Below, piece by piece: positions 23,573-62,373 of a DNA stretch of 64,000 nt (within the stretch, counting starts at the first letter, position 1; the number at the start of each line of letters is the position of its first letter). The stretch covers positions 124,001 to 188,000 of the forward strand of contig PGCN01000003.1 in assembly GCA_002786385.1 (NCBI GenBank), in the 5' to 3' direction. Source of the stretch: Flavobacterium sp. FEMGT703F. Its GTDB lineage: Bacteria; Bacteroidota; Bacteroidia; Flavobacteriales; Flavobacteriaceae. Under the pieces are notes generated by a model. That model was not told the origin of the DNA and did not search any database. It saw only the letters and a program-made list of their open reading frames with translations. Position numbers and translations under genes: made by a program.

Positions 23573-23624
23573 TAAGGTTCTAAGGTTCTAAGGTGCTGAG
23601 TAGCTGAGTTACTGAGTAGCTGAG
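23573..23624 (+). repeat. Octamer repeat array, arm 1 of the pair flanking the four-helix-bundle gene
   Basis: Six and a half degenerate octamers follow one another: taaggttc, taaggttc, taaggtgc, tgagtagc, tgagttac, tgagtagc, tgag. The consensus is T-R-A-G-K-N-N-C. The array ends 1 bp before the stop codon of the broken gene at 23626. Confidence 0.9.
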
Positions 23625-24011: not shown

Positions 24012-24046
24012 CTCAGCCACTTAGTAACTTAGCTACTCAGTCGCTC
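24012..24046 (-). repeat. Octamer repeat array, arm 2 (inverted relative to arm 1)
   Basis: Reads ctcagcca, cttagtaa, cttagcta, ctcagtcg, ctc. Its reverse complement is the same T-R-A-G-T-N-R-C word as at 23573-23624. The array overlaps the stop codon of the pRiA4b-like gene by one base. Confidence 0.9.
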
Positions 24047-24701: not shown

Positions 24702-25097
24702 TTATTTTTTCTCTTCTTTACAGAGACCGACGATTTTGTGGAAAGAATCGTGTAAGGCTGCCAGCGCTTTTTTGATTTCCTCATCGCTGTATTTTCTTTG
24801 CACCATATCGTTGACTTTTTTGGTTTCTTTTTTCAGAATCACCAAAGATTCTATCAACTTCGGACTGCGGAATTCTTCCGGCATGTTTTCAACCGAAAGG
24901 GCTTCGGCTTTTTCTACTAAGAGTTCCGAATGGGATTTGATTGGATCTAAATTTCCTTCTTCAGAGGCATGAAATGTTTTTGAAATAACTTCGTGATACG
25001 CTCTGATTTCAGGCCAACGCTCGGTTACCGTTTGTGCCGAGACTGAATTCAAGGCAAAGAATGCTGCAAAAGCAAACAGGGATTTGATAATTTTCAT
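24702..25097 (-). CDS. Small exported helical protein of unknown function
   Basis: A 131-residue protein with a signal peptide ending near SVSAQT. The remaining 110 residues are charged and look all-helical, with one histidine in the N-terminal part (IRAYHEVISKTFHASEEGN) and a second near the C-terminus (ALHDSFHKIVGLCK). No named family is recognised. It is divergent from the TonB-dependent receptor, and the LytTR-like operator at 25175-25218 lies 78 bp upstream of its start, so it could share that control. Confidence 0.7.
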   Translation of the reverse strand: MKIIKSLFAFAAFFALNSVSAQTVTERWPEIRAYHEVISKTFHASEEGNLDPIKSHSELLVEKAEALSVENMPEEFRSPKLIESLVILKKETKKVNDMVQRKYSDEEIKKALAALHDSFHKIVGLCKEEKK

Positions 25098-25174
25098 AGT
25101 TTAGTGGTTTTGGTACTGCAATTGTACTGAATTTTCTCGTGATATTTTGTTAAAGCTACTTTTTTTTGAACTTT

Positions 25175-25246
25175 AACAATTCATCCTTGAAAAATTACAA
25201 TTCGGTTAATTTAAATTGGGCAGCGTTGGAATTTATTAGAAGTTTG
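25175..25246 (+). promoter_or_regulatory. Predicted LytTR-type operator and promoter of the TonB-dependent receptor
   Basis: Direct repeats AACAATTCAT and TACAATTCGG have their CAATTC cores at 25177 and 25198, exactly 21 bp (two helical turns) apart. TTG lies at 25216-25218 and a -7-like GAAGTTTG at 25239-25246. The 44-bp block 25175-25218 matches 27513-27556 at 34 of 44 positions, and the -7 octamer begins 43 bp after the start of the second repeat in both. Confidence 0.6.
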
Positions 25247-25265
25247 TTGCATCAAAACATGAACA

Positions 25266-27419
25266 ATGAAGACATTTTACACTTTCGTTTTACTGGTAGT
25301 AGCTTTTGCTACCCAAGCCCAACAAACTATCTCGGGAACGGTGCTGGATGAAAAGAATAAACCCATCGCCGGTGCGAACATTTTTATTGAAGGTACCTAT
25401 GATGGTGCTTCATCTGATGACAATGGTCGTTTTACTTTTACTTCAACCGCTACAGGGAATCAGGTATTGGTGATTAGTTTTCTAACCTATGAAACTTTAA
25501 AGGTTACCATTGATGTAGCCAATGGTCAAAATAAAACGTTCAAACTCAAAGAAAGTGTCAATTCTTTAGATGCTGTTATCGTTACTGCCGGAACGTTTGA
25601 TGCCGGTGAAAAAGCCAGAGTTTCGGTGTTGAAACCCTTGGATATAGTGACTACTGCCGGTGCTATGGGCGACATAGTTTCGGCTTTGCAAACTTTACCC
25701 GGAACCCAAACCGTAGGTGAAGACGGCAGACTGTTCGTGCGTGGCGGGGAAGCTGATGAAACCCAAACGTTTGTGGACGGCATTCGAGTAGCCCAACCTT
25801 ATGGCGCGACTACAGCGAATGTGCCGACTCGCGGACGATTTTCTCCTTTTTTATTCAGCGGTATGTCGTTTTCTACCGGAGGTTATTCGGCCGAATACGG
25901 CGAAGCTTTGTCGAGTGTGTTATTATTGAATACCCAAGACGAAGCCACAGAGGAGAAAACGGATATCTCATTAATGACCGTTGGTTTAGGTTTGGCCAAT
26001 ACCCAAAAATGGGGTAATAATTCGTTGAGCTTTAATACGGCTTACATCAATTTAGAGCCTTACCAAAAAGTGTTTCCGCAACGTGCCGATTGGAATAAAC
26101 CATTCCAGTCGCTCTCGGGAGAAGCGGTTTACCGTCATAGTTTTGATTCGGGCATGTTCAAATTGTATGCGGCTTTTGAAGCTTCTCAATTCGATATCAA
26201 CAGTGAAACTATCAATAGTCCCGATAAAATCAGAGTGGATTTGAACAATAACAATTTTTATCTTAATTCGTCCTACAAAGCCAATTTTGGTTCCCAATGG
26301 CAATTGTTCAGCGGATTGAGTTATGGGTATAGCGAAAATAAAATAGGTATCAGTTTGGATGACGTTGCCAACACAGAACACGCTTCACATTTGAAATTAA
26401 AATTGAAAAAATCGTTTTCCGATAGGGTAAAATTGTCTTTCGGAAGTGATTATTTCATCACCCGTTTCAATGAAGATTTCAAGGCTAATTCCGGTGGAAA
26501 CTTCAATAGCGGTTATGATGCTAATATAGCCGCATTCTACGCTGAAACAGATATTTTCTTTTCTAAAAAGTTTGCAGTTAAATTGGGCGCACGTTTGTCT
26601 GACAACGATTTGCTGAGAGAAACTGTAATAGCACCGCGCGCTTCATTGGCTTATAAAATATCTCAAAACGGTCAGTTCTCCTTTGCCTACGGTAGTTTTA
26701 CCCAAGCACCGAGACAAGAATACTTAAAATATGCCGATTATTTGGAAAGCGAAAAAGCCCAGCATTACATTTTGAATTACCAATACAGCAAAGACCGCAG
26801 AACGTTTAGAGCGGAAGTATATTTAAAATCATACCAAGATTTGGTGAAGTTTGACACGCCAACAGTTCAGTTTAATTCTGATTTCAGCAATTCCGGTTCC
26901 GGCTACGCTCAAGGATTAGATGTGTTTTGGAGAGATAACAAATCGGTTAAAAATCTGGAGTATTGGGTTTCCTATTCCTATATCGATACCCAAAGAAATT
27001 ACCGCAACTTTACGGCCGAAGTAACGCCGAGTTTTGTGGCCAAGCACAGTTTAAGCGTAGTGTCAAAATGGTGGATTAACAAATTAAAATCGCAATTGAG
27101 TGTGACCAATTCTTTCACTACCGGAAGACCATTCAACAATCCGAACGAGTCTCAGTTCATGAACGGCAGCACCAAAGGGTACAATAACTTGAGTTTAGGT
27201 TGGGCTTATTTAATGACACAACAAAAGATTTTGTATTTTTCGGTATCGAATGTTTTAGGAACGGCTAATGTTTTTGGTTATGAATACGCCAATACACCCA
27301 ATACGGATGGTGTTTACAACAGAAGAGCTATTCGCCCAACCGCAGATCAGTTTTTCTTTGTAGGCTTCTTTTGGACCATTAGTGAGAATAAGAAAGACAA
27401 TCAGTTGAATAATTTATAA
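25266..27419 (+). CDS. TonB-dependent receptor with carboxypeptidase-regulatory-like N-terminus
   Basis: A 717-residue outer membrane receptor. A signal peptide ends near ATQAQQ. Residues about 20-105 are a CarboxypepD_reg-like beta-sandwich (ISGTVLDEKNKPIAGANIFI). The plug domain follows, with LQTLPGTQTVGEDGRLFVRGG and FVDGIRVAQPY, then a 22-strand-type barrel. A TonB box cannot be assigned. There is no SusD partner beside it, so it is not a classic polysaccharide-utilisation pair. It lies under a predicted LytTR operator and is on the same strand as the kinase/2TM/LytTR cluster. The cargo is unknown. Confidence 0.9.
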   Translation: MKTFYTFVLLVVAFATQAQQTISGTVLDEKNKPIAGANIFIEGTYDGASSDDNGRFTFTSTATGNQVLVISFLTYETLKVTIDVANGQNKTFKLKESVNSLDAVIVTAGTFDAGEKARVSVLKPLDIVTTAGAMGDIVSALQTLPGTQTVGEDGRLFVRGGEADETQTFVDGIRVAQPYGATTANVPTRGRFSPFLFSGMSFSTGGYSAEYGEALSSVLLLNTQDEATEEKTDISLMTVGLGLANTQKWGNNSLSFNTAYINLEPYQKVFPQRADWNKPFQSLSGEAVYRHSFDSGMFKLYAAFEASQFDINSETINSPDKIRVDLNNNNFYLNSSYKANFGSQWQLFSGLSYGYSENKIGISLDDVANTEHASHLKLKLKKSFSDRVKLSFGSDYFITRFNEDFKANSGGNFNSGYDANIAAFYAETDIFFSKKFAVKLGARLSDNDLLRETVIAPRASLAYKISQNGQFSFAYGSFTQAPRQEYLKYADYLESEKAQHYILNYQYSKDRRTFRAEVYLKSYQDLVKFDTPTVQFNSDFSNSGSGYAQGLDVFWRDNKSVKNLEYWVSYSYIDTQRNYRNFTAEVTPSFVAKHSLSVVSKWWINKLKSQLSVTNSFTTGRPFNNPNESQFMNGSTKGYNNLSLGWAYLMTQQKILYFSVSNVLGTANVFGYEYANTPNTDGVYNRRAIRPTADQFFFVGFFWTISENKKDNQLNNL

Positions 27420-27420
27420 A

Positions 27421-27503
27421 GAGTAACTGAGTTGCTGAGTGACTGATAGCCTGAGCTAAAGCAAAAAACGCTTAGCTACTTAGTTACTCAGAAACTCAGG
27501 CTC
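27421..27503. repeat. Octamer hairpin repeat between the receptor and the exported repeat protein
   Basis: The left arm (27421-27455) has gagtaact, gagttgct, gagtgact. The right arm (27470-27503) has cttagcta, cttagtta, ctcagaaa, ctcagg. The arms are inverted copies around a 14-nt AT-rich centre and could form a long imperfect hairpin that may act as a terminator or a processing site. Confidence 0.88.
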
Positions 27504-27512
27504 TCCAAGAAA

Positions 27513-27584
27513 AACAGTTCATCCCCAAAAATCTACAATTCGGTCATTATAAATTTCACAACCAAATTAACCAAACTACTTTTG
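27513..27584 (+). promoter_or_regulatory. Predicted LytTR-type operator and promoter of the exported repeat protein gene
   Basis: Direct repeats ACAGTTCAT (27514-27522) and ACAATTCGG (27535-27543) are 21 bp apart. The first matches the published LytTR half-site pattern [TA][AC][CA]GTTN[AG][TG] at every position. A consensus -7 box TACTTTTG lies at 27577-27584. The layout is the same as at 25175-25246. Confidence 0.65.
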
Positions 27585-27630
27585 GAGTATAAAATAACTA
27601 GAGTTTTAATCATCTAAAAAATCAAGAATC

Positions 27631-28251
27631 ATGACAAAAATTATTACCATTATCGCCCTATTAGTAAGCTCCGTTTTATCGGCACAAACACCCTACGAAC
27701 AAGGAATGACTAAAGCCCTTGGTTTGTGGAGAGAAGGCAAATCTAAAGAAGCTTCCGATGTAATGGAACGCATCGCTTCCGCAGAAAAAAGCAACTGGTT
27801 ACCCAATTATTATGTAGCCATGATTAACACAACAGAAGCTTTCAATCCGGCTAACAAAAGCAACGCTACTGCTTTACTTGAGAAAGCCCAACAAGCCCAA
27901 GATGCAGCTACAGTAATCAGTCCGAATAACGCAGAATTACTGGTGATGCAAGCTATGATTTACACGGCCATGATTGTGCAAGATCCTATGGTCAACGGGA
28001 TGAAGTATTCGCCTAAAGTGATGGAGTTGTATACTAAAGCCAAAATCATTGCGCCGGAAAATCCCAGAGTAGTTTACTGTAAAGCCGAGTTTGAAATCAG
28101 CGGCGCCCAATGGACCGGTGCCGATGTGAAAAAATTATGCTTAGATTTGGAATCCGCCATTCCTTTATTTGAAAAATTCGTACCCGAATCACCTTTTCAT
28201 CCAAAATGGGGATTAGACAGAGCCCAGCAAGCATTGAAAAATTGTAAATAA
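27631..28251 (+). CDS. Exported helical-repeat (TPR-like) protein
   Basis: A 206-residue protein with a signal peptide ending near VLSAQT. The mature part is helical, with TPR-like helix pairs: YEQGMTKALGLWREGKSKEA, then a segment ending LLVMQAMIYTAMIVQD, and later VMELYTKAKIIAPENPRVVY. It should be a periplasmic or outer-membrane-facing protein that binds another protein; the partner is unknown. It has its own predicted LytTR-controlled promoter and is followed by an octamer hairpin before the kinase gene. This suggests it is an output of the neighbouring two-component system. Confidence 0.75.
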   Translation: MTKIITIIALLVSSVLSAQTPYEQGMTKALGLWREGKSKEASDVMERIASAEKSNWLPNYYVAMINTTEAFNPANKSNATALLEKAQQAQDAATVISPNNAELLVMQAMIYTAMIVQDPMVNGMKYSPKVMELYTKAKIIAPENPRVVYCKAEFEISGAQWTGADVKKLCLDLESAIPLFEKFVPESPFHPKWGLDRAQQALKNCK

Positions 28252-28252
28252 A

Positions 28253-28327
28253 GGTACTAAGGCACTAAGGTTCTAAGAAAATGAACTCAGTGCCTAAGAA
28301 CCTTAGCACCTCAGAACCTTAGCACCT
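28253..28327. repeat. Octamer hairpin repeat upstream of the LytS-type kinase
   Basis: The left arm reads ggtac, taaggcac, taaggttc, taag (28253-28277). The right arm reads ctcagtgc, ctaagaac, cttagcac, ctcagaac, cttagcac, ct (28286-28327). The arms are inverted and separated by 8 nt. The kinase ATG follows 10 nt later, so the kinase could be silenced or stabilised by this structure. Confidence 0.9.
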
Positions 28328-28337
28328 GAAAAATCAA

Positions 28338-29675
28338 ATGAAACCAATACTCAAAGAAATTCCCAGAGCTATCATCATTTCACTAACCATCTTTTTTGTG
28401 TTAGTTTTGATACGATTGATTACCGGAAACAGCATCACCTTCAACTACGCTTTGCTGGTGAACTTTGGCTACACCATGTTGTACGGGATGGCTTTATACT
28501 TGTCGAATGCGGTTGTTTTTATGTATTTAGACAAAGTTTTCTCGGCCGAAAGGTTTACACCAAAACGCATCTTGATTGGTTTTATATTATCGTTTTTGGT
28601 TTCGATAGTGGTGATTTTTTTACTCCGCATTTTTGAAGATGTATGGGTAGAAGGCATTCCGTTCCGTGTTTTTTTAAGTCAGGAACACATGGCGAATTAT
28701 TTGGTTGCAATAGTCATTACTTTGATAGTAACTTTAGCTTTCCACGCCTTTTACTTTTACAAAGCTTATGCGGAAAATAAAGTCAAAGAACAAAAAGTTA
28801 TAGCCGGAACTGCTTCAGCCCAGTTTGAAAGTTTGAAAAACCAAATCGATCCGCATTTTTTGTTCAACAGCTTGAATGTATTGAGTTCGTTAATTGAAGA
28901 AAATCCGGATAATGCGCAAAAGTTTACTACTTCTTTGTCTAAAATTTACCGTTATGTGTTGGAACAAAAAGATAAAGAATTGGTGTCGGTGGAAGAAGAA
29001 TTGTCGTTTGCCAAAACGTATATGAATTTGCTCAAAATGCGTTTTGAAAACAGTATCAGCTATGAATTACCAACCGATTTTGACAATCCGGAAGCCAAAG
29101 TAGTACCGTTGTCGCTCCAACTTTTATTGGAAAATACCATCAAGCACAATGTAGTGAGTGAGCAAAAACCGCTACACATCAAGATTTATATTGAGAACAA
29201 CTATTTAATCGTTGAAAATAATTTACAAAAGAAAGAAGTCTTGCAAGATCGAAAAGGCGTTGGGCTGCAGAACATCGTTAATCGTTACGGCTTGATTTCG
29301 GAAAGAAAGGTTTTAGTGGAACAAACCGAAACCGCTTTCAAGGTCAAAATTCCTATTTTAACCAAACAAATTGTCATCATGGAAACACAAAATATCTACA
29401 ATGAAAATATGGCTTATGTTAGAGCCAAAGAGCGAGTGGAGAAACTCAAAGGATTTTACGGCAACTTAATTTCGTATTGTTTCGTTATCCCGATTTTAAT
29501 TTTTATCAATCTTAAAACCAGTAATTTTCATTGGTTTTGGTTCCCGATGTTGGGTTGGGGAATGGGTTTAACCTTTCACGCGCTGGAAACGTTTGGTTAT
29601 GGAAAATCCTGGGAAGAAAAGAAGATTCGTGAAATCTTAAACAAAGAAAACAATTCAAACAACAAATGGAGTTAG
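28338..29675 (+). CDS. LytS-type sensor histidine kinase fused to a C-terminal 2TM domain
   Basis: A 445-residue membrane kinase. Four helices (about residues 8-30, 38-66, 75-98, 115-142) lead to a His_kinase domain with the phospho-acceptor in QIDPHFLFNSLN, the N-box LENTIKHNV and a G-box GVGLQNIVNRYGL. After residue 347 comes a complete 2TM domain (RVEKLKGFYGNLISYCFVIP, then FPMLGWGMGLTFHALE and SWEEKKIREI). The fusion point is an ATG (29379) in a context like the starts of the free 2TM genes downstream, and from there the piece is 98 residues, the same size as the free ones. It is the likely partner of the LytTR regulator at 30696. Confidence 0.9.
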   Translation: MKPILKEIPRAIIISLTIFFVLVLIRLITGNSITFNYALLVNFGYTMLYGMALYLSNAVVFMYLDKVFSAERFTPKRILIGFILSFLVSIVVIFLLRIFEDVWVEGIPFRVFLSQEHMANYLVAIVITLIVTLAFHAFYFYKAYAENKVKEQKVIAGTASAQFESLKNQIDPHFLFNSLNVLSSLIEENPDNAQKFTTSLSKIYRYVLEQKDKELVSVEEELSFAKTYMNLLKMRFENSISYELPTDFDNPEAKVVPLSLQLLLENTIKHNVVSEQKPLHIKIYIENNYLIVENNLQKKEVLQDRKGVGLQNIVNRYGLISERKVLVEQTETAFKVKIPILTKQIVIMETQNIYNENMAYVRAKERVEKLKGFYGNLISYCFVIPILIFINLKTSNFHWFWFPMLGWGMGLTFHALETFGYGKSWEEKKIREILNKENNSNNKWS

Positions 29676-29677
29676 TT

Positions 29678-29992
29678 ATGGAACCCTCGAACGAAATTTT
29701 GGAACAAATTGTCAAAGAGCGCGTACACAAGCTAAAACAATTTTATACGCACTTGTTTATTTACGTTATTGGTGTTGCGGTGTATGTGGCTAAGACTTAT
29801 TTTGGCGTACCGCTCAACTTTTGGCCGATTCGTTTTATCAATGAATTTGTGATGGGATTGTGGACCTTCTTCTTGGTGATGCAGGCAATGCAGTTGTTTA
29901 TAACACAAAAGGTATTGGGTTACCAATGGGAACAAAAACGCATTCAGAAAATCATGGAAAAGGAAAAAACCAAACAACAAAAATGGGAATAA
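29678..29992 (+). CDS. 2TM domain-containing protein 1
   Basis: A 104-residue membrane protein with a charged amphipathic N-terminus, two transmembrane helices (HLFIYVIGVAVYVAKTYFG and FVMGLWTFFLVMQAMQLFI) and a basic C-terminal helix ending EKEKTKQQKWE. An in-frame ATG 12 nt upstream overlaps the kinase stop. I prefer 29678 because it leaves the same 2-nt gap after the previous stop as the next two genes. It belongs to the 2TM family, which often accompanies LytTR systems in Bacteroidota. Function is unknown. The glycine-rich LGWG motif of its neighbours is absent here. Confidence 0.82.
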   Translation: MEPSNEILEQIVKERVHKLKQFYTHLFIYVIGVAVYVAKTYFGVPLNFWPIRFINEFVMGLWTFFLVMQAMQLFITQKVLGYQWEQKRIQKIMEKEKTKQQKWE

Positions 29993-29994
29993 TC

Positions 29995-30294
29995 ATGGAA
30001 ACTACTAACGAATTTGAACGCTACCAAAAAGCAAAAAAACAAGTCGAAGACATCAAAGGTTTTTACGGTCATTTGGCTTCTTATGTTTTGGTAATGGGAT
30101 TGTTGATTTTTATCAACCTGCGCTATACACCACAATATTTATGGTTTGTTTGGTCGATGTTAGGCTGGGGAATCGGATTGTTTTTTCATGCGATGAAAGT
30201 CTTTAATTGGTTCCCGTTTTTCAATAAAGAATGGGAAGAAAAAAAGATCAAGCAGTATATGGAAGAAGAAAAGAAAACCAATAAATTTGAATAA
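29995..30294 (+). CDS. 2TM domain-containing protein 2
   Basis: A 99-residue protein starting METTNEFERYQKAKKQVEDI. The order is N-terminal charged helix, IKGFYGHLASYVLVMGLLIF, a short loop, SMLGWGIGLFFHAMKVFNWF and a C-terminal WEEKKIKQYMEEEKK helix. It is the closest relative of the 2TM domain fused to the kinase. The start follows the previous stop by 2 nt (TAA-TC-ATG). It may associate with the kinase membrane domain; this is inference. Confidence 0.85.
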   Translation: METTNEFERYQKAKKQVEDIKGFYGHLASYVLVMGLLIFINLRYTPQYLWFVWSMLGWGIGLFFHAMKVFNWFPFFNKEWEEKKIKQYMEEEKKTNKFE

Positions 30295-30296
30295 TC

Positions 30297-30605
30297 ATGG
30301 AACAATACGACGACATAAAATACCAAGAGGCCGCGAAAAGAGTCCAAAAAATAAAAGGATTTTACACGCATGCCGTAGTTTATTTGGTGATCAACACCGC
30401 CATCATTATTTCTCAGATTCAATTTAGCAGTAGTGACAATTGGAGTTTGGAACTTCGCCAATTTTCTACTGCCTTTTTCTGGGGTATCGGTTTAGCTGCA
30501 CACGGACTTTCCGTTTTTATGCCTACCATGATTTTAGGTAAAAACTGGGAAGACAAGAAAATCAAAGAATTAATGGAGAAAGAGAAAAACAATAAATGGG
30601 AATAA
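30297..30605 (+). CDS. 2TM domain-containing protein 3
   Basis: A 102-residue protein starting MEQYDDIKYQEAAKRVQKIK. The two helices are GFYTHAVVYLVINTAIIIS and FSTAFFWGIGLAAHGLSVF, and the C-terminal helix is NWEDKKIKELMEKEK. It follows the same TAA-TC-ATG junction. It is the last of four 2TM units in a row (one fused, three free), then an octamer hairpin and the LytTR gene follow. Confidence 0.85.
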   Translation: MEQYDDIKYQEAAKRVQKIKGFYTHAVVYLVINTAIIISQIQFSSSDNWSLELRQFSTAFFWGIGLAAHGLSVFMPTMILGKNWEDKKIKELMEKEKNNKWE

Positions 30606-30608
30606 TAA

Positions 30609-30687
30609 AGTGACTGAGATACTAAGTGCCTAAGCAAATCAGCAAAATGAACTTAGCCACTCAGTCACTCAGTCACTCAGCCACTCA
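30609..30687. repeat. Octamer hairpin repeat upstream of the LytTR regulator gene
   Basis: The left arm (30609-30634) reads agtgac, tgagatac, taagtgcc, taag. The right arm (30652-30687) reads cttagcca, ctcagtca, ctcagtca, ctcagcca, ctc. The arms are inverted with an 18-nt centre. The regulator ATG is 9 nt beyond the right arm. Confidence 0.9.
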
Positions 30688-30695
30688 AAACAAAC

Positions 30696-31451
30696 ATGAA
30701 CATCATCATCATTGAAGACGAAAAGCCCGCTGCCCGATTGCTCCAACGCAAAGTGGAAAAACTCGGACTCACAGTTAATACATTGTTACATTCTGTAGAA
30801 GAATCGATAAATTGGTTCAACACCAATACGCATCCCGATTTGATATTCCTCGACATCCAACTGTCCGACGGATTGTCGTTTGAAATTTTTGAAAGAATCG
30901 ACATCAAAAGTGCTGTTATTTTTACCACAGCATATGATGAATATGCCTTGCGCGCCTTCAAACTCAATAGTATCGATTATTTGTTAAAACCTATAGACGA
31001 AGACGATTTGGAGACCGCAGTGACCAAATTCAAAAATCAATTTCAAAAAAGTTTGGTCACCGGTTTAGATTTTGAAGCCATCAAAAAGATGTTGGTGAAT
31101 CCAATCGACCGACAATACAAAAAACGCTTTACCATCAAAATGGGACAACAACTCAAGATGATTGCCATTGACGAAGTCGAATGTTTCTTCAGCGAAAATA
31201 AAGGCACGTATTTGCACACTGTAGACAATCGTGATTATTTGTTGGATTCGACTTTGGAACAACTCGAAACCGAACTCGATCCGGATGTATTTTACCGCGT
31301 TTCCCGTAAATTCATCATCCCGATGAAAGCCATTAAAGAAATTCAGTTGCACAGTAATTCTCGCCTCAAAGTGATTTTACCGACCTACAAAGACGATGAA
31401 GTAATTGTGGCCAGAGAACGCGTGAACGATTTCAAAGAATGGTTGGGATAA
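30696..31451 (+). CDS. LytTR-family response regulator
   Basis: A 251-residue DNA-binding regulator. The receiver domain (about 1-120) has the acidic pair IIEDEKPAA, the phospho-acceptor in IFLDIQLSDGLSF, the switch TTAYDEYALRAF and the Lys in LLKPIDEDD. The LytTR DNA-binding domain (about 145-251) opens with KRFTIKMGQQLKMIAIDEVECF and includes FYRVSRKFIIPMKAIKEI. It is encoded in the same direction as the LytS-type kinase and the 2TM genes. Its likely operators are the two 21-bp-spaced direct repeats upstream of the receptor and the exported repeat protein. Confidence 0.95.
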   Translation: MNIIIIEDEKPAARLLQRKVEKLGLTVNTLLHSVEESINWFNTNTHPDLIFLDIQLSDGLSFEIFERIDIKSAVIFTTAYDEYALRAFKLNSIDYLLKPIDEDDLETAVTKFKNQFQKSLVTGLDFEAIKKMLVNPIDRQYKKRFTIKMGQQLKMIAIDEVECFFSENKGTYLHTVDNRDYLLDSTLEQLETELDPDVFYRVSRKFIIPMKAIKEIQLHSNSRLKVILPTYKDDEVIVARERVNDFKEWLG

Positions 31452-31535
31452 GCCTGTTAAAGTTGGTAAAGTTTTGTTAACTCCATTTCAATCTGTTACT
31501 TAAGTTAGTAACTTCGTTACCTTTCATTATAAGGT

Positions 31536-32021
31536 ATGAGGTTAATTTTTACATTGTTTTTTGTTTTAACATCGATGGGTTGCTCAAAACTTTCGGCTCA
31601 AATAGCAGTTTACGAAAAGTTTGATGCCTTTGAAAAAGCGGTTCTCAAAGAAGATGATAATACTTATGTAGTTAACTTTTGGGCTACTTGGTGTGCGCCT
31701 TGTATTAAAGAATTACCCTATTTTGAGCAATTGCATAAAGATAATCCCAAAGTGAAAGTCATTTTAGTCAGTTTGGACAGCCGAAAAGACTTAGAGAAAA
31801 AGCTTATTCCATTTGTAGCAAAAAAGCAGTTAACCGCTGAGGTTATTTTGCTGAGTGATAAAGATTACAATGCTTGGTTGAACAAAATTGATGACTCTTG
31901 GTCGGGTGCTATTCCGGCCACGCTGATTATTAGTGGAAAAAGAAAGCTGTTTGCCGAGCGCGAATTCGAAAATTTTACTGAACTCAACAACTACGTAAAC
32001 GCATTTATCAATCATAACTAA
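31536..32021 (+). CDS. TlpA-like thioredoxin-fold protein
   Basis: A 161-residue exported protein. The redox motif is WATWCAPCIKELPYF. The N-terminus is a signal, possibly a lipoprotein one (SMGCSK) or cleaved later at LSAQ. The thioredoxin fold continues with VILVSLDSRKDLEKK and the cis-Pro region GAIPATLII. It should carry thiol electrons in the periplasm. A second thioredoxin-fold gene starts 10 nt after its stop, so the two are probably co-transcribed. Confidence 0.87.
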   Translation: MRLIFTLFFVLTSMGCSKLSAQIAVYEKFDAFEKAVLKEDDNTYVVNFWATWCAPCIKELPYFEQLHKDNPKVKVILVSLDSRKDLEKKLIPFVAKKQLTAEVILLSDKDYNAWLNKIDDSWSGAIPATLIISGKRKLFAEREFENFTELNNYVNAFINHN

Positions 32022-34512: not shown

Positions 34513-34552
34513 TGAGTAGCTGAGTTACTAAGTAGCTGAGTAACTGAGTTGC
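34513..34552 (+). repeat. Octamer array upstream of ctaA (left arm)
   Basis: Five perfect-phase octamers: tgagtagc, tgagttac, taagtagc, tgagtaac, tgagttgc. The matching inverted arm is at 34639-34665, with 86 bp of AT-rich sequence between. Confidence 0.92.
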
Positions 34553-34638
34553 AAATTTAACATGTATTTGTATTCCTTTAACTGAAACAAATGATAATAG
34601 TTTATTAATTTTTATTGAAAAAAAGGGCTTTTTAGCTA

Positions 34639-34665
34639 TTCAGTAACTCAGCTACTCAGCCACTC
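34639..34665 (-). repeat. Octamer array overlapping the 3' end of the CCA-adding-type gene (right arm)
   Basis: Reads ttcagtaa, ctcagcta, ctcagcca, ctc. Read on the minus strand it supplies the last codons GTG GCT GAG and the stop TAG of the gene that begins at 36073. The coding end of that gene is therefore made of repeat sequence. Confidence 0.9.
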
Positions 34666-62305: not shown

Positions 62306-62373
62306 TGAAGTTGCTGAGTTGCTTAGTTTCTGAGTTTTTTTTCAGTTGTTCACTAGCTTAGTCTCTCGGTCAC
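62306..62373. repeat. Degenerate octamer hairpin repeat inside the infC-rpmI spacer
   Basis: The left arm has tgaagttgc, tgagttgc, ttagtttc, tgag. The right arm reads ttcagttg, ttcactag, cttagtct, ctcggtca, c and abuts the infC stop. The words are more degenerate than elsewhere. The insertion is within an essential ribosomal-protein transcript. Confidence 0.75.

Follow-up and report, generated by a model that had tools for sequence, protein, structure and literature searches.

Paired putative LytTR operators before a TonB-dependent receptor gene and a HusA-family/kinase–regulator gene group in Flavobacterium sp. FEMGT703F

The locus and its two promoters

The window (the whole stretch of DNA analysed, 64,000 nt; Flavobacterium sp. 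FEMGT703F, assembly GCA_002786385.1, contig PGCN01000003.1, positions 124,001–188,000 of the forward strand) contains a TonB-dependent receptor gene, followed by genes for an exported HusA-family protein, a LytS-type histidine kinase, three 2TM proteins and a response regulator with a LytTR DNA-binding domain. Two matched 44-bp blocks precede the receptor gene and the HusA-family gene; they are very probably operators of the regulator at 30696–31451, through which it would switch on the receptor gene and its own apparent operon. The features are given below by position in the window, with the basis of each in brackets.

25176–25205, + strand: receptor operator; box 1 ACAATTCAT (25176–25184), 12-bp spacer, box 2 ACAATTCGG (25197–25205) (pattern scan, conservation, weight matrix)
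25239–25246, + strand: −7 element of the receptor promoter, GAAGTTTG (start predicted at ~25251 by the F. psychrophilum −12 to −5 rule)
25266–27419, + strand: first gene of the regulon, for a TonB-dependent receptor of 717 aa made up of a CarboxypepD_reg-like N-domain, a plug and a barrel (domain search)
27420–27504, + strand: long hairpin of 8-bp-period repeats between receptor gene and second operator, −41.2 kcal/mol, z −6.8 (folding against shuffles)
27514–27543, + strand: operator of the HusA-family/kinase–regulator genes; box 1 ACAGTTCAT (27514–27522), 12-bp spacer, box 2 ACAATTCGG (27535–27543) (pattern scan, conservation, weight matrix)
27577–27584, + strand: −7 element of the second promoter, TACTTTTG (start predicted at ~27589)
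27631–28251, + strand: exported, TPR-like HusA-family protein of 206 aa, encoded by the second gene of the regulon, which also opens the apparent kinase–regulator operon (model, profile, fold)
28338–29675, + strand: LytS-type histidine kinase (PF06580) with C-terminal 2TM domain (PF13239) (domain search)
29666–29992, + strand: stand-alone 2TM protein (domain search)
29995–30294, + strand: stand-alone 2TM protein; the ATG at 29995 was preferred to a longer GTG open reading frame from 29860 (domain search)
30297–30605, + strand: stand-alone 2TM protein (domain search)
30696–31451, + strand: response regulator, receiver (PF00072) and LytTR domain (PF04397); proposed binder of both operators (domain search, orthologues)

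The domains of a LytS/LytTR two-component system (PF06580, PF00072, PF04397) all scored above cut-off. A phmmer search with the LytTR domain alone, at E 0.1, found no relative of it in the PDB. The hairpin at 27420–27504 probably separates the receptor unit from the second unit.

Operator anatomy: An earlier note, made from the letters of the window, had described blocks at 25175–25218 and 27513–27556 as identical at 34 of 44 positions with repeats 21 bp apart; direct comparison gave the same identity, and the CARTTC cores begin at 25177/25198 and 27515/27536, i.e., 21 bp apart in both blocks. The LytTR half-site consensus is [TA][AC][CA]GTTN[AG][TG]; ACAGTTCAT at 27514, cited in the note as a full match, was found there and agrees with it at 9/9 positions. 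The three remaining boxes of the window have A for G and agree at 8/9; box 2 of the relatives is often ACAGTTCGG (9/9) or ACAGTTCAG. Only the distance to the octamer had to be corrected: claimed as 43 bp, it was counted as 42 when measured from the start of the second ACARTTC (41 from CARTTC); what matters is that the two copies do not differ in this distance.

The layout of both copies is ACARTTCAT-N12-ACARTTCRG, 10 bp, T-tract, N19, TAnnTTTG; counted from the first base of box 1, the boxes lie at 0–8 and 21–29, a conserved A-run at 14–17, the T-tract from 40 and TAnnTTTG at 63–70. The T-tract is taken here to be the −33 element of Bacteroidota promoters. Starts in F. psychrophilum lie 5 bp past the −7 box (−12 to −5), according to excerpts of PMC9723704; by this rule the start falls at offset 75 and the midpoint of the repeats at about −60.

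LytTR operators are defined by two repeats of 9–11 bp, 11–13 bp apart, placed about 10 bp upstream of the −35 or −33 element; both copies are 9-12-9, box 2 ends at 29, the T-tract follows from 40 and the −7 element from 63. The published operators, as given in excerpts of the papers listed in the last section, are 9-bp direct repeats, mostly with a 12-bp spacer and most often 10 bp upstream of −35; the geometry in the window is an exact fit to this, though the promoter type differs. A sigma-70-type promoter (TTAACA-17-TACAAT, 25173–25201) overlapping the first block was considered; 14 such sites were found in 25000–31700 vs 17.2 in shuffles, and this reading was rejected since they are no commoner than in shuffles and flavobacteria use TAnnTTTG (literature excerpts).

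Chance in the own genome: The 34/44 match by itself is suggestive only and not decisive, since a comparable pair arose in one first-order Markov shuffle of the window out of 11; in the window itself, pairs of this type occur at 11 offsets, 94 and 188 among them, which is the pattern of a tandem repeat. CARTTC-N15-CARTTC with zero mismatch occurs also once within the kinase gene (28977, minus strand). The own genome was scanned with the longer pattern: ACARTTCAT-N11-TACAATTCGG is present exactly at the two blocks only in the 2.98-Mb genome, with one extra place at 3 mismatches and none in the reversed control; the extra site (L003) was dropped, as it has no ANNTTTG at offsets 50–78. With a weight matrix built from the boxes alone of 78 relatives' second-gene promoters, the blocks scored 41.9 and 37.2 bits, the next best place in the window 6.7 (both strands). 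It is the comparison with relatives, and not the 34/44 match alone, that places the blocks beyond chance.

Repeats in the gaps: The self-complementary 8-bp-period repeat CTNAGNNACTNAG has 30 matches in the window vs 0.17 expected, in groups at 23596–23624, 24012–24040, 27427–27499, 28257–28298, 30614–30680, 34520–34659 and 62314–62334. The first six groups lie in, or touch the edge of, intergenic gaps; five stretches were folded and gave hairpins better than every shuffle. Possibly these repeats are terminators, attenuators or a mobile small repeat.

Recurrence in relatives and co-occurrence with the regulator

Genus set: Forty loci around orthologues of the regulator were picked by hand from ~77 matches so as to span 55–88% identity; kinase and regulator occur together in 39 of them (exception, L099; L and G numbers are locus and genome labels of this analysis), while the receptor gene could be located in 32 loci and the HusA-like gene in 34. 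Relatives that bear the cluster keep the blocks: the box pair is present with ≤4 mismatches in 32/32 receptor promoters and 33/34 HusA-like promoters, the last having 5. Among the genus promoters with ≤4 mismatches, the −7 element being outside the selection, A at offset 64 and TTT at 67–69 are invariant.

Named-genome set: Eighty loci of named genomes, partly overlapping the genus set, were found via the HusA-like protein; 2 had too little upstream sequence, and 73 receptor promoters were testable. F. psychrophilum, F. johnsoniae CI04 and F. hydatis are among the carriers; in CI04 (L199) one site precedes a gene of receptor size (719 aa) and another a DUF2141 gene that lies ahead of the HusA-like gene. 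The box pair was present with ≤4 mismatches in 78/78 HusA-like promoters. With selection by the boxes alone, exact ANNTTTG stands at offset 64 in 64/78 HusA-like promoters, no other offset from 45 to 89 having one, and in 73/73 receptor promoters (also at offset 51 in 8, and at 46, 53 and 54 in 2, 1 and 1). With selection by box 2 and −7 alone, the best spacing of box 1 was 21 in 78/78 and 73/73 promoters, ties being broken towards 21.

The operator is more than 250 bp from the HusA-like gene in 17/78 relatives, with an open reading frame of 134–138 aa between them in 13 of the 17. These 13 intervening frames (L168, L170, L171, L181, L186, L192, L199, L201, L207, L210, L216, L223, L228) are of DUF2141 type, DUF2141 being assigned by Pfam in 3/3 scanned; a DUF2141-type gene is thus first in the regulator's unit in 13/78 relatives and is absent there in the window. 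A 4-mismatch copy of the site was seen just before the 2TM genes in 4 of 5 diverged loci, L144 (9198), L145 (2814), L146 (7414) and L147 (8868), which suggests a separate 2TM promoter in those four.

Co-occurrence: A site was counted where boxes plus −7 matched with ≤3 mismatches. Within the genus (101 genomes) sites were present in 67/68 genomes with an orthologue of at least 68% identity, 5/9 with a homologue of 55–61% and 7/24 without; within the family (299 genomes) in 212/223 with an orthologue (E<1e-80), 3/5 between and 2/71 without, against 2/299 in the reversed control. For the order (148 genomes), a match was found in 9/127 genomes of other families, in 6 of these 9 at ≤3 kb upstream of a homologue. 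The orthologue-bearing family genomes below the cut number 11; 4–6-mismatch sites stand at like places in 5/5 inspected.

Five of the 7 orthologue-free genus genomes with a site carry one recurrent 3-mismatch sequence, which lies inside a gene in the single case inspected (G392, L137); the counts were made both with and without it. Four genomes that do have an orthologue (G344, G359, G375, G386) contain this sequence too, in addition to their other matches. The other two are G342, where the contig ends just past the second promoter (L138), and G319, which has a receptor remnant (residues 1–193 with a stop). No sites were found by genome scan in G303, G323, G349 and G371, which have 7–12 other LytTR matches and no orthologue. 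Site presence follows the clade of this regulator and not other LytTR paralogues.

Reading of the sites and alternatives

The link claimed in the earlier note, from the regulator at 30696 through LytTR operators to both genes, stands as the best reading by geometry, conservation and clade tracking, from which we infer binding and activation. The 'complete circuit' of the same note goes too far as regards the signal.

On a signal, the membrane kinase (28338–29675), perhaps with the 2TM proteins, would phosphorylate the regulator; two protomers would then sit on the direct repeats, both on the same face of the DNA, with a distance of 21 bp (two helical turns) between them and with the −33 element 10 bp downstream. 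The bound regulator would recruit or stabilise RNA polymerase at the TAnnTTTG promoter. This would turn on the receptor gene as one unit and, as the other, the genes for the HusA-family protein, the kinase, the 2TM proteins and the regulator, which look like a single operon headed by the HusA-family gene. Autoregulation is therefore likely and, with the regulator lying within the activated unit, the feedback would be positive.

Several observations weigh against this account. None of the 24 orthologue-free genus genomes has the HusA-like gene (in G342 because of the contig end), nor has G348, and it is present in 3/3 controls; no close receptor copy is left in the orthologue-free genus genomes, except in G342 and as the remnant in G319. 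The module is thus lost as a block, so co-occurrence alone cannot prove that this regulator reads the sites; moreover, the genomes are not independent, and Fisher values, which ignore kinship, are not probabilities. Sites are present in G006 and G270, where an orthologue was not detected among the only 9 candidates scored in each; two stretches of G006 gave no HusA-like, kinase or regulator gene by BLAST. G348 (L088, 83% complete) has a shortened kinase, 2TM and regulator genes, and is without operator, close receptor and HusA-like gene; this module may be a decaying copy. At the G position of the half-site consensus, box 2 reads A in both window copies and G in many relatives. Finally, weaker hairpins lie in the gaps 28250–28332 and 30604–30692 of the second unit; a single transcript is therefore not assured, and the operon may be split.

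Other LytTR regulators: It is improbable that the blocks are true operators read by another LytTR regulator, or by several, with the neighbouring regulator acting elsewhere. In favour of a different reader are the loose consensus sites that LytTR proteins often have in common, the 7 matches to this regulator in the own genome (the regulator being one of them), and the inheritance of the module as a block. They are outweighed by the four site-free genomes rich in other LytTR matches, by the family counts of 212/223 vs 2/71, and by the position of the match close upstream of a homologue in 6 of the 9 site-bearing genomes of the order's other families.

Repression: Somewhat less probable still is that the regulator at 30696–31451 binds as a repressor, or that its unphosphorylated form holds the promoters off. 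Site position is all that is known here, which leaves room for such a role; that position, with boxes ending 10 bp upstream of the −33 tract and centred at about −60, is nevertheless the one of LytTR activators, and the distance to −7 is the same in 137/151 promoters, those with an exact −7 element.

Duplication: That the blocks are an old duplication of the upstream region, or a structural DNA element, with no dedicated regulator is very improbable: two copies do lie 2.3 kb apart in one locus and 34/44 identity alone is not decisive, but conservation is centred on the boxes, the A-run of the spacer, the −33 tract and the −7 element, with much variation between them, and relatives have the site also upstream of DUF2141 and DUF2807 genes and of two further families, at unlinked places in some cases.

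The HusA-family protein, the wider regulon and known systems

The product of 27631–28251 had been labelled an exported repeat protein; exported and TPR-like it is, and the label is amended by profile and fold to a HusA-type, haemophore-like family member. Pfam gave no match for it. The model is all-helical (mean predicted local distance difference test score 89.6). A profile of 26 sequences (hmmsearch) found P. gingivalis HusA at E 8e-18 over residues 41–206, the next PDB entry at 0.006; the top Foldseek match of the model was HusA (E 9.1e-7, template modelling score 0.79); VIA gave HusA Z 21.6, root-mean-square deviation 2.7 and 189 aligned residues, the next row having Z 16.7. Among the five haem-linked HusA residues in the profile alignment, F80 is kept in 26/26, L123 is V or A, and V124, W130 and Y164 are replaced; porphyrin binding was downgraded, as the contact residues are mostly not kept. 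The protein was not found in the plasmid collection. For the receptor, the PDB search gave a SusC homolog fragment only (1.2e-4). Receptor and HusA-like protein are probably a capture-and-uptake pair of the surface or periplasm.

Regulon in other genomes: A sample of 34 sites in 20 loci was picked by hand from the family list. The sites stand before the receptor gene (9), the HusA-like gene (11; a DUF2141 gene first in two), a DUF2141 gene (7) and a DUF2807 (Toastrack) gene (7; in one case with another small gene in between). One DUF2141 representative and the two DUF2807 genes of L110 were assigned by Pfam, the others by BLAST to these. Loci of other genera with an operator before DUF2141 and DUF2807 envelope genes are L110, L112, L115, L117, L119 and L121; Toastrack is tied to phage-shock-type envelope stress in excerpts of PMC11237479. 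In large Flavobacterium genomes additional sites precede two more classes of gene, one for a protein of 351 aa (L124–L128) and one for a membrane protein of 218 aa (L129–L133), in 5 loci each; the scanned representative of each class, one each, lacked a Pfam match. As judged from site matches, the predicted regulon extends to further genes in other genomes; extra sites on other contigs or far from the module speak for action in trans.

Comparison with known systems: Excerpts of the following papers were drawn on: PMC10197871, PMC6193735, PMC4227749, PMC5395568, PMC10057207, PMC4847170, PMC6173696, PMC10100897 and PMC11967795. The present system is like YpdAB and BtsSR (YehUT) of E. coli in having a LytS-type kinase with a receiver–LytTR regulator, direct repeats 21 bp apart and very few targets; for YpdB the excerpts give GGCATTTCAT-N11-GGCATTTCAT, 21 bp apart, and one target. 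The best curated NCBIfam matches of the regulator were BtsR (106.5 of 246 bits) and LytR (97.4 of 375 bits), both below cut-off. What sets the present system apart from YpdAB and BtsSR is the 2TM domain at the end of the kinase, the three 2TM proteins encoded with it, the nature of the targets (an outer-membrane receptor and a HusA-family protein) and the promoter, TAnnTTTG, of Bacteroidota type; the likeness does not imply pyruvate sensing.

AgrA of S. aureus, which belongs to a peptide quorum-sensing system, differs in phylum and promoter type; its likeness is in a dimer on two direct repeats, centred at about −60, upstream of P2 and P3 (AgrA features, from the excerpts). The LytTR Regulatory Systems (LRS) HdrRM and BrsRM of S. 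mutans share, by the excerpts, the 9-12-9 geometry, the bias towards 10 bp before −35 and the place upstream of the regulator's own operon; they have a membrane inhibitor protein and are set apart there from two-component systems, whereas a receiver domain and a histidine kinase are present here, and the system is not an LRS.

HusA of P. gingivalis, paired there with the TonB-dependent receptor HusB (excerpts; UniProt Q7MSY4 according to PMC10100897), is by far the closest PDB relative of the 27631 protein in sequence and fold. The pairing of receptor and HusA-like protein is the same in kind; unlike in HusA, most porphyrin contacts are not kept. LytTR does not occur in one P. gingivalis haemin-regulation paper (PMC3764172), and the two Hus papers were not searched for it. 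No description of this regulon was found in the open-access literature, by title or start of abstract, among the matches listed, subscription journals being largely outside; the box sequences as query gave unrelated subjects only, among the matches listed. LytTR operators and LytS/LytTR systems are already well known, and what is unusual here is the breadth, the 2TM partners and the HusA-like target.

As a tentative proposal, less likely to hold than to fail, a widely conserved, autoregulated LytTR regulon of the Flavobacteriaceae may run surface capture: a helical HusA-type binder with an altered groove would pass a non-porphyrin, or differently held, ligand to the TonB-dependent receptor; the 2TM proteins would be membrane subunits of the kinase for sensing or inhibition; and the DUF2141 and Toastrack envelope proteins that the switch adds in many genomes would couple capture and envelope maintenance.

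An orthologue of the regulator is present in 223 of 299 sampled Flavobacteriaceae genomes. This sensor system, present in most of the sample, now has a defined operator, promoter geometry and short target list, and the function of 2TM-kinase systems becomes testable with one reporter. The LytTR geometry known from Firmicutes and E. coli also holds for the unusual promoter of the Bacteroidota, and a HusA-type protein is tied to a regulator and a receptor outside Porphyromonas.

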